Origin: Propionibacteriaceae bacterium P6A17 | GTDB taxonomy: Bacteria; Actinomycetota; Actinomycetes; Propionibacteriales; Propionibacteriaceae | NCBI GenBank assembly: GCA_000619965.1 | Contig: KK211045.1 | Coordinates: 736-64,735, forward strand | Length of the DNA: 64,000 bases | Direction of reading: 5' to 3' | Part shown: in pieces, positions 13,120-15,932 of the stretch | How the letters are laid out: the number at the start of each line of letters is the position of its first letter | How positions within the stretch are numbered: position 1 is the stretch's first letter | Translations under genes and position numbers: made by a program | The notes under the pieces: generated by a model | The model's database searches: none | What the model was told of the DNA's origin: nothing | Seen by the model: the letters and a program-made list of their open reading frames with translations, nothing else

Positions 13120-13947
13120 CTATCGCAGCGACTCGGGAAGCCACCACAGACCGTCGTTGTGCTGCGAGAGATAGGACTTGAACTCGTCGGAACGGTAGGC
13201 GGCGACGATGTCCTTCGCCCACTTCGCGTCCTTGTTGTCCTCGTGAACCGCCACCTGCAGGACGAGGTGGGGGAGGATGTCCTCCTGGAGCAGCGCGGTG
13301 GAGGGGTCGATCTTGGCGTTGTACACGATGGACCCGGTGATGACCGCGTAGTCGAAGTCGTCGAGCGACGCGGCCACCGTCGTGTTCACGAGCTCCTGCA
13401 GATCCAGGTTGTGCGGATTCTCGACGATGTCGTCGGCCGTGACCGTGGCGAGGTCGGCGTCGGGATCGAGCGTGATCCAGCCGGCCTTCTGCAGCAGGGC
13501 GTAGGCGCGCGACGTGTTGGCGGCGTCGTTCGGCACCGCCACGGTCATGCCGTCGACGATTTCGTCGAGCGAGTCGTGCCGGCCCGAGAAGAGGCCGGCG
13601 GGCACCGTCGGGATCTCGCCGATGACGGCGAGCTGACCGCCCTGCTTCTCGTTGAAGTTCTCCGCGTAGGCGGTGTGCTGCTCGACGTTGAAATCGATCT
13701 CCTTCTCCGTCAGCGCGATGTCGTTCTGCACGAGGTCCGACATCTCGACGACCTCGAACGTGTAACCCTGGTCCTCGAGGATCGGGATGATCGCATCCTC
13801 GAACAGCACGGTGTACGGGCCTTGGGCCTTGCCGTACTTCAGGTGGGTTTTGGCGTCGCCGGAGGCTTCCTCGCTGCCCGCGCCGGCGCAACCGGCCAGG
13901 GCGAGGGTGAGGGCGGCGGTGAGTGCCACGATGCGGTGCAAAGCCAT
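13120..13947 (-). CDS. metQ: MetQ-family substrate-binding lipoprotein
   Basis: A 275-residue NLPA/MetQ lipoprotein with the lipobox LALAGC (Cys20). Family-typical segments are EDAIIPILEDQGYTFEVVE, DLVQNDIALTEKEIDFNVEQ, VAVPNDAANTSRAYALLQ and FDYAVITGSIVYNA. It should be tethered outside the cell and feed MetNI. It is last of the metN-metI-metQ operon, 18 nt after metI. The usual ligand is D- or L-methionine, but MetQ-like proteins also bind other sulphur compounds, and the polycysteine leader upstream makes a cysteine link worth testing. Confidence 0.9.
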   Translation of the reverse strand: MALHRIVALTAALTLALAGCAGAGSEEASGDAKTHLKYGKAQGPYTVLFEDAIIPILEDQGYTFEVVEMSDLVQNDIALTEKEIDFNVEQHTAYAENFNEKQGGQLAVIGEIPTVPAGLFSGRHDSLDEIVDGMTVAVPNDAANTSRAYALLQKAGWITLDPDADLATVTADDIVENPHNLDLQELVNTTVAASLDDFDYAVITGSIVYNAKIDPSTALLQEDILPHLVLQVAVHEDNKDAKWAKDIVAAYRSDEFKSYLSQHNDGLWWLPESLR

Positions 13948-13965: not shown

Positions 13966-14643
13966 TCAGGCCTTGTTGCGCGCACGCCGGGCCAGGTGGT
14001 TGCCGAGCGATTGCAGGGATTGGACGAGGACGATCAATGCGACGACGGTGAGTGCCATCAGCGGGGCATTGAACGCCTGGTAGCCGTAGGTGAGTGCGAT
14101 GTCGCCGATGCCGCCGCCACCGATGTAGCCGGCCATCGCGGTGGCGCTGACCAGCGTGACCGCCCCGGTCGTCACGGCCAGCACGATCGACGGCCAAGCC
14201 TCGGGGAGCAGGAAGTGGCGGACAATCTGCCACGTGCTCGCCCCCATCGACTGCGCTGCCTCGACGATGCCCCGCGGCACCTCGAGCAGCGACGCCTCGA
14301 ACAGCCGGGCGATGAACGGCCCGATGTAGAGCGTGAGGGGCACCAGCGCCGCCGTGGTACCGATTCTCGTGCCGACCAGCGCCTTCGTCAGCGGCATCGC
14401 CACCACCATGAGGATGATGAACGGCAGCGACCGCACGACGTTGACCAGTGCCCCCAGCGCGGCGAACACCGGGCGGTTGGGGAGGATGCCGTCGGCGCGC
14501 GTGAGCACCAGCGTGACGGCGATCGGGATGGCGAGGAGGGTGCCCAACAGGAGCGCCCAGCCCACCATGTAGAGCGTTTCGGCGCCCGCATCGACGAGCC
14601 GGTCGGGGGCGATGCCGAAGTGTGTGTCGAAGATCTCGTTCAT
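13966..14643 (-). CDS. metI: MetI-family ABC transporter permease
   Basis: A 225-residue membrane permease with about five transmembrane segments. Its cytoplasmic coupling loop is EVPRGIVEAAQSMGASTWQI, with the EAA-loop pattern for the ATPase contact, and ATAMAGYIGGGGIGDIA is a hallmark of MetI. Its ATG overlaps the stop of metN. Confidence 0.93.
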   Translation of the reverse strand: MNEIFDTHFGIAPDRLVDAGAETLYMVGWALLLGTLLAIPIAVTLVLTRADGILPNRPVFAALGALVNVVRSLPFIILMVVAMPLTKALVGTRIGTTAALVPLTLYIGPFIARLFEASLLEVPRGIVEAAQSMGASTWQIVRHFLLPEAWPSIVLAVTTGAVTLVSATAMAGYIGGGGIGDIALTYGYQAFNAPLMALTVVALIVLVQSLQSLGNHLARRARNKA

Positions 14644-15701
14644 GCTGCGGTGCCTTCCTGCGCGGCGATCTCGAGCGTGTGGAGGTCGAGGTCGGTGATG
14701 TCGTAGCCGGCTTCGAACAAGTGCTGACGCGCCTGACGCAGCGGCAGCGCCGCGCCGAGGGCCTGGACGTTGAGGACGCCGAGCAGGTCGTCGCCGATTT
14801 CCTGGATCGTCGCGCTGAGCAGTCTGGTGGTGACGCCGAACTGGCGGTGCACCTGCGCCAGCGCCTCGGAGCCATTCACGTCGCCCCGGGCCGCGAGCCG
14901 CCAGAGGGCATACGGTTCGGGAGTCTCACGCACCTGCTCCATGAGGCGGCGCGGCACCCGGTCGTCGACGATGGTGCGCACGAACCGTCGGGTGATGTCC
15001 TGCTCGGGATTGGCGAACACGTCGAGGACGGGGCCGGACTCGACGATGCGCCCGCGGCTCATCACCGCCACCTTGTGACACACCTTGGCGATGACGTGCA
15101 TCTCGTGGGTGACGATCAGGATGGTGACCCCAAGCTCCCGGTTCACGCGGGCGAGCAACTCGAGGATCGAATCGGTCGTGTCGGGATCGAGTGCGGAGGT
15201 GGCCTCGTCGGCCAGCAGAATGCCGGGCCGATTCGCGAGCGCACGGGCGATGCCCACCCGCTGCTTCTGCCCACCCGAGAGCTGCCCGGGACGGGCGTTC
15301 GCCTTGTCGGAGAGTTCGACGAAGCCGAGCAACTCGGTCACGCGCGTGCGGATCTCATCGGCGGGCACGCCCGCCAGCTTGAGCGGCATGGCGACGTTGT
15401 CGAACACGCTGCTGCTGGAGAGGAGATTGAACTGCTGGAACACCATGCCGATGCCGCGGCGGTGTGCGGCGAGGCGCTTGCCGCGCAGCCCGGTGACGCC
15501 GCGGCCATCGATCAACACCTCGCCCTCGTCGGGGGGTTCGAGGAGGTTGACGAGCCGCAGGAGGGTGGATTTGCCGGCGCCGGAGGTGCCGACGATGCCG
15601 ACGATCTCTCCGTCGTCGATCGTGAGGTTCACGTCGTCGAGCGCTCGAACCTCTCGGTCGGCGGCGTGGAAACGCTTGTGGATGTGGGTGAGTTCGATCA
15701 C
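14640..15701 (-). CDS. metN: MetN-family ABC transporter ATPase with NIL domain
   Basis: A 353-residue ATPase. Walker A is GTSGAGKST (38-46), the signature is QLSGGQKQRVGIARAL near 138 and Walker B is ILLADEATSALDPD. The C-terminal part from about 270 (VTTRLLSATIQEIGDDLLGV, ALPLRQARQHLFEAGYDI) is a NIL domain, the ferredoxin-like module through which intracellular methionine inhibits MetNI. I chose the GTG at 15701 because AGGAGG (minus strand, 15714-15709) precedes it by 7 nt and the ABC fold begins directly after it. An ATG 20 codons upstream would lie on top of this ribosome binding site. The start codon is part of a 7-nt segment complementary to the leader hairpin. Confidence 0.94.
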   Translation of the reverse strand: MIELTHIHKRFHAADREVRALDDVNLTIDDGEIVGIVGTSGAGKSTLLRLVNLLEPPDEGEVLIDGRGVTGLRGKRLAAHRRGIGMVFQQFNLLSSSSVFDNVAMPLKLAGVPADEIRTRVTELLGFVELSDKANARPGQLSGGQKQRVGIARALANRPGILLADEATSALDPDTTDSILELLARVNRELGVTILIVTHEMHVIAKVCHKVAVMSRGRIVESGPVLDVFANPEQDITRRFVRTIVDDRVPRRLMEQVRETPEPYALWRLAARGDVNGSEALAQVHRQFGVTTRLLSATIQEIGDDLLGVLNVQALGAALPLRQARQHLFEAGYDITDLDLHTLEIAAQEGTAA

Positions 15702-15751
15702 GGGTCGCCCTCCTGGGCATGCAAGGACACTACTGGCGTGGGATGGATGGA

Positions 15752-15784
15752 ACCCGTGCATCGCCCTCAGCGGGCGGAACGGGT
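15752..15784 (-). promoter_or_regulatory. hairpin overlapping the leader-peptide stop codon
   Basis: On the minus strand ACCCGT (15784-15779), whose first base is the last base of the leader TGA, pairs with ACGGGT (15757-15752). GCCC and GGGC extend the stem inside, with a short loop. The segment CACGGGT (15758-15752) can instead pair with ACCCGTG (15705-15699), which covers the metN start codon. The two pairings exclude each other. Confidence 0.55.
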
Positions 15785-15873
15785 CACGCGGAGCAACAGC
15801 AGCAGCATGCGCCAGCGTGCGGCATGACGGGCGCAGCGACGCTCAGGGGAGCGCTCGGCTGGATGCAGGTCAT
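15784..15873 (-). CDS. polycysteine leader peptide upstream of metNIQ
   Basis: A 29-codon ORF that begins MTCIQPSAPL and ends HAGACCCCCSA. Five consecutive Cys codons (TGC TGC TGC TGT TGC, 15807-15793) lie two codons before the stop. It is read in the same direction as metN and ends 82 nt before the metN GTG. Short ORFs ending in Cys runs are known in mycobacteria as cysteine-responsive attenuators of sulphur genes; the role here is inferred by analogy. The ribosome binding site is weak (GAAAGCGAAG, a few nt from the ATG). An internal ATG at 15825 would give a 13-residue version with the same Cys run. Low-complexity GC-rich chance is the main alternative. Confidence 0.6.
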   Translation of the reverse strand: MTCIQPSAPLSVAAPVMPHAGACCCCCSA

Positions 15874-15902: not shown

Positions 15903-15932
15903 ACACTAGGCGCACACGCAGTGCCGTGTCCA
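15903..15932 (-). promoter_or_regulatory. candidate promoter of the leader-metNIQ operon
   Basis: Minus-strand TGGACA (15932-15927) and TAGTGT (15908-15903) are 18 bp apart. A start near 15896 would leave about 22 nt before the leader ATG. Confidence 0.45.

Follow-up and report, generated by a model that had tools for sequence, protein, structure and literature searches.

In Propionibacteriaceae bacterium P6A17, an operon encoding a MetNIQ-type importer is preceded by a short ORF with a cluster of Cys codons beside its stop, and this ORF is probably a leader peptide that senses tRNA-Cys and, once cysteine becomes scarce, switches on an importer of the cyst(e)ine type. From the sequence comparisons below we infer that the leader is translated and that the Cys codons just before the stop gauge the amount of charged tRNA-Cys; upon cysteine shortage the ribosome would pause at the Cys cluster, and pausing would, by analogy with known attenuators, lead to higher expression of the downstream metNIQ-type genes. 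The direction of control and the nature of the substrate belong to the same proposal. The locus lies in a stretch of 64,000 nucleotides of contig KK211045.1 (the window) and its features are collected in Table 1.

Table 1. Features of the leader and importer locus (window positions)
Feature	Position	Strand	Description
Promoter-like TGGACA-N18-TAGTGT	15903..15932	-	weak; 8/12 by eye; below scanner threshold; upstream of leader
Leader ORF	15784..15873	-	29 codons, MTCIQPSAPLSVAAPVMPHAGACCCCCSA and stop; homologous ORFs before metN in L033, L034, L035, L036
Conserved core PHAGACCCCC	15793..15822	-	alignment of five leaders; five Cys codons at 15793-15807
Predicted hairpin ACCCGTT..GCACGGGT	15750..15785	-	starts at leader stop
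metN Shine-Dalgarno AGGAGGG	15708..15714	-	sequence
metN-like ATPase	14640..15701	-	GTG start; Pfam ABC_tran and NIL; NCBIfam MetN 359 bits (cut-off 499.7)
metI-like permease	13966..14643	-	Pfam BPD_transp_1; NCBIfam MetI 188 bits (cut-off 212)
metQ/NlpA-like lipoprotein	13120..13947	-	E/D-QH clade without methionine signature; Pfam Lipoprotein_9

A conserved leader ORF upstream of metN

The sequence-only reading had described a 29-codon ORF with five consecutive Cys codons that lie two codons before the stop, ending 82 nt before the metN GTG. Both statements hold on the minus strand: the run reads TGC TGC TGC TGT TGC, followed by Ser-Ala-stop, and positions 15702-15783 separate the leader stop from the GTG (15699-15701). 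Taken alone, such a run is no more frequent in its own genome than expected by chance, with two matches to (TGY)5 in 2.73 Mb and also two for the reversed control pattern; the second (TGY)5 place (L002) spans larger open frames and does not belong to a comparable leader. The significance of the leader derives from its conservation and not from the Cys run itself. The leader peptides gave no matches in NCBIfam and Pfam, and no cis-regulatory RNA of Rfam (SAM riboswitch, T-box) matched at the leader at the gathering threshold. The sole Rfam match in the window was a glycine riboswitch away from the leader (RF00504, 20520-20604, minus strand, 56.1 bits), located upstream of glycine-cleavage genes on the same strand.

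A search with MetI in 198 genomes of the family returned exactly five members of the close subfamily (418-458 bits, next best 222), and the relatives of the window protein at 71-72% identity were found in only four other genomes. In all five genomes (five loci; two genera are represented, and three of the assemblies are metagenomic) metN is preceded by a homologous in-frame leader, which reads MRSYGVGRPVVAFDVARPTVPLAGACCAC in L033, MRQEARRHTLPAFDVASPVVPLAGACCGCRTL in L034, MRTYGQGRPAAAFLVATPVVPLAGACCGCPTA in L035 and MKRVHVPGEPIAPLSVADPVIPLAGACSACPAA in L036, each followed by a stop. The leaders align without gaps over 17 codons up to the last conserved Cys and share the end P(L/H)AGAC(C/S)xC, situated 0-4 codons before the stop, while the flanking DNA is not alignable (identity 0.24-0.34). 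Identity at codon positions 1, 2 and 3 is 0.79, 0.81 and 0.64. The amino-acid score in frame 0, the frame in which conservation at that level is highest, is 669 versus 392 +/- 75 in column shuffles, a value reached by 2 of 2000 shuffles, and the frame is kept although the spacing between motif and stop varies.

The number of Cys residues in the cluster ranges from two (L036) to five. Judged from the alignment, what is conserved is not a stretch of five Cys but P(L/H)AGAC(C/S)xC, and the five Cys of the window are an enriched version of this motif. Of the earlier expectation of a conserved in-frame Cys run, the cluster was retained in all five loci and the run of five was not; neither the absent Cys runs nor the frame breaks looked for in orthologous metN leaders were encountered. 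Elsewhere in the 198 family genomes the motif matched in other or longer frames that are not linked to the importer, and the 395 genomes of the class yielded one stray match, again within a longer frame. In the five genomes, a search for Cys leaders beside the PALP and Cys/Met-PLP (trans-sulfuration-type) genes gave nothing convincing. All five leaders use TGT for the last conserved Cys, yet TGC and TGT occur 11:4 in the window genes counted. By our reading, the end of a gcvP-like gene is the upstream neighbour of the leader in both L033 and the window.

Possible modes of control by the leader

How pausing on the leader would affect the importer genes was considered in several ways. Translation of the leader could govern whether transcription ends early, most likely through Rho, in the stretch before metN that is rich in C and poor in G; we regard this as quite possible although short of probable. 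C exceeds G in each of the five gaps before metN (C minus G 0.09-0.21), and Rho has been proposed for mycobacterial cys leaders in an earlier study (PMC1262725). The bias is modest, being equalled by 0.5-15% of random stretches; a C-rich gap in five of five loci that is modestly above background makes Rho-dependent control possible. The scan for promoters and terminators at the window locus reported neither a strong promoter nor an intrinsic terminator, and what had been called a plausible promoter before the leader was reduced to the weak match in Table 1. The hairpin behind the leader stop (-19.8 kcal/mol, z -2.4) is significant in the window only (z -1.4 to +0.7 in the orthologs) and was discarded as a conserved structure.

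Somewhat unlikely, in our view, is control at the level of translation, in which the Cys-codon region would pair with the metN ribosome-binding site (RBS) and a stalled ribosome would set the RBS free. In the minimum-energy fold of the window, the Cys codons pair with CAGUAGUG..GCAUGC just before the Shine-Dalgarno sequence, the leader end of L033 pairs close to this site, and a mechanism based on pairing with the RBS is reported for mycobacteria, namely M. smegmatis (PMC9031893, PMC13236596). Against this, the pairing is absent from the folds of L034, L035 and L036, leader-RBS duplexes are no stronger than those of dinucleotide shuffles in any genome, and masking the Cys codons did not clearly raise the predicted accessibility of the RBS in the window. 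Sequestration of the RBS by the Cys tract is not supported across the orthologs, as modelling gave no consistent effect with the ribosome absent, initiating, stalled at the first or last Cys, or at the stop. Across the five loci we found no conserved pair of mutually exclusive RNA structures acting on the RBS or on a terminator.

The residues that precede the Cys cluster are conserved as well, so that a contribution of the nascent chain may exist. VAxP(V/T)(V/I/M)P(L/H)AGAC might be an arrest element that, at low levels of Cys-tRNA, aids stalling from within the ribosomal exit tunnel, with as few as two Cys codons sufficing; we consider this unlikely. A leaderless transcript of the mycobacterial type was not apparent: no -10 element was seen by eye at the distance required for a leaderless start in the five upstream sequences, and in L034 the leader ATG is preceded by GGAGGAC.

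The importer, its MetQ clade and cysteine T-boxes

The genes behind the leader belong to the MetN, MetI and NlpA subunit families, as expected for MetNIQ, and all three products score below the NCBIfam cut-offs for methionine transporters (for MetQ 120 versus 374; for the others see Table 1). In Neisseria MetQ, the thioether packs against Y81, F98, H100 and Y103, the amino and carboxyl groups are bound by R156, N213 and N238, and the replacement N238A weakens binding of L-Met over 10^5-fold (PMC6739813). Four of these seven contacts are replaced in the window MetQ (Y81L, F98E, N213T and N238L), with H100, Y103 and R156 kept, so that the set of methionine-contacting residues that marks a MetNIQ transporter is incomplete. 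Across the clade to which this MetQ belongs, the residues found at these four positions are mostly L/A, E/D, T/P and L/I. The acidic residue in place of F98 could touch a second charged group, for instance that of cystine. The AlphaFold model (pLDDT 87) agrees with MetQ structures; its nearest PDB entries are those of Nm MetQ, which is also the closest solved relative that we found, and no structure of a member of the clade with ligand was seen. The most likely substrate of the importer is cysteine, cystine or some other source of cysteine.

It is quite unlikely that the importer still transports methionine and is co-regulated with cysteine since methionine can feed cysteine synthesis. The MetNIQ fold and family membership, as well as the presence of trans-sulfuration-type PLP enzymes in the genome, agree with such a role, but N238, critical for L-Met in Nm MetQ (PMC6739813), is a Leu, Y81 and F98 are replaced too, none of the three subunits reaches its cut-off, and a canonical metNIQ copy coexists in the genome (L222). 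That copy carries the methionine signature (DDYVLPN, NYFQHLPY, NDVSNQAR and AIVNANF) and is not preceded by a Cys leader.

We also observed a different conserved leader ORF upstream of canonical metNIQ copies, in which Met and Cys codons adjoin the stop; it lies about 80-195 nt before metN and is a candidate Met/Cys-sensing leader. Examples are MTTTSDRIPATEATMTPGARCMCRMCAF and ORFs ending in ARLLPAVPAMMMRVRMCCR and ARLHTAAPAMMCMRMCCC, each followed by a stop; none has a match in Rfam or NCBIfam. It was found near position 1732 in L076 and in about a dozen other Streptomyces loci (L074, L077, L081, L083, L084, L089, L092-L094, L098, L108 and L111), in L091/L110, in Tessaracoccus (L012, L015 and L028) and in L158.

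In the MetQ tree, the window protein falls in one clade with proteins of Propionibacteriaceae, Megasphaera, Acidaminococcus, C. ljungdahlii, Corynebacterium and Bifidobacterium (support 0.999). T-boxes precede the importer genes of the Firmicutes in this clade, with 96.4 bits in L039 and 95.3 bits in L049, and with scores below the gathering score of 93 in L037 (88.9 bits) and L054 (80 bits). Another 11 T-boxes (88-105 bits) were found in nine genomes of the Acidaminococcus order. The specifier loop reads GAA-UGC in L039, L037 and these nine genomes; in L049 (GAACG-UGC-A) and L054 (AAG-UGC-A) the placement is our own reading. Cys T-boxes upstream of transporter genes of C. perfringens respond to cysteine (PMC2940859). 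The occurrence of T-boxes with a UGC specifier on the same MetQ clade speaks for a leader that senses Cys as well as for a substrate related to cysteine, and suggests that two phyla have placed this clade under control by tRNA-Cys with devices that are unrelated. The proposal of the sequence-only reading that the importer answers to charged tRNA-Cys rather than to SAM thereby gains independent support, as it does from the four lost MetQ contacts, with attenuation as its putative step; the same two observations favour import of a cysteine source, as had also been suggested.

The next gene after the T-box is metN or, if the T-box is located at a greater distance, one encoding an M20-type amidohydrolase. 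The latter gene is found between the Cys T-box and metNIQ in L037 (816-1970) and L049 (496-1680), an arrangement that L181, L185 and L186 resemble, and it hints at an N-acylated cysteine as substrate. In L183 (2004-2571) and L179 (1783-2407), tandem Cys T-boxes precede the same importer. A second MetI copy of A. fermentans has a SAM riboswitch instead (L164, 80.2 bits). Control by a leader is not universal in the clade, because no Cys leader was found near metQ in the Corynebacterium relatives and only one of three Bifidobacterium loci has a Cys-rich ORF (L050, ending in GCLCLAAACAVCSSA and a stop), with two relatives lacking it. Upstream of metQ in L038, a member of the same clade, we noticed a palindrome (TAGAC-N6-GTCTA) that resembles the McbR operator of Corynebacterium.

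A fortuitous ORF, lying on upstream DNA that is conserved for some other reason, is highly improbable as an explanation of the leader: the chance-level frequency of the Cys run and the partial conservation of the core at third positions (e.g. in the last conserved Cys codon) would fit, but amino-acid conservation exceeds that of the shuffles and is highest in frame 0, the frame survives a variable distance to the stop, and the link to Cys recurs independently in the T-boxes.

Relation to known systems and implications

Cys-responsive leader-peptide attenuators are characterized by a short ORF whose Cys codons lie close to the stop; the cysteine-related role of the downstream gene that membership of this class also implies is suggested here by the T-boxes and the MetQ pocket. 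The polycysteine leader sORFs of mycobacteria, known from M. smegmatis (Canestrari et al. 2020), are, as outlined in PMC9031893 and PMC13236596, similar in being short ORFs with Cys codons near the stop that precede a sulphur-related operon in an actinobacterium. Compared with these, the leader in P6A17 differs in its target, an importer, in its conserved P(L/H)AGACxxC instead of a plain Cys run, and in the lack of any sign of a leaderless transcript. It differs likewise in that sequestration of the RBS is not conserved, as pairing of the Cys tract with the downstream RBS was seen solely in the folds of the window and L033 and not above shuffles. Candidate Cys leader peptides were also put forward for cys operons of Mycobacterium and P. 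acnes and for cbs in B. longum (Seliverstov et al. 2005, PMC1262725). They share the Cys codons near the stop and the lack of a conserved terminator, and P. acnes is of the same family; the downstream gene is different, and the likeness noted here is one of arrangement.

The Cys T-box leaders (RF00230, UGC specifier) likewise sense the charging of tRNA-Cys and precede the same importer clade in Firmicutes, but a T-box is a tRNA-binding RNA that involves no peptide, and the machinery is unrelated. With the MetNIQ methionine importers, the system shares the fold, the gene order N-I-Q and the subunit families; it is set apart by its altered MetQ contacts, by its NCBIfam scores and by control of a Cys type instead of a SAM/Met type. 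Our literature search returned no description of a cysteine-regulated MetNIQ clade; specialist T-box surveys were outside that search and priority is therefore not claimed.

A MetNIQ-type clade that is present in both Actinobacteria and Firmicutes, and that is liable to be annotated as methionine importer, thus probably serves cysteine. The sensing of tRNA-Cys on this clade, by a leader peptide or by a T-box, would provide a cheap and testable rule for the re-annotation of substrate specificity, and the importers of the Propionibacteriaceae would join the genes that are thought to be under the control of Cys-codon leaders. Conservation of the leader peptide makes a role of the nascent chain testable as well; if such a role is real, the leader would be an arrest peptide that senses an amino acid and governs a MetNIQ-type importer reassigned to cyst(e)ine.
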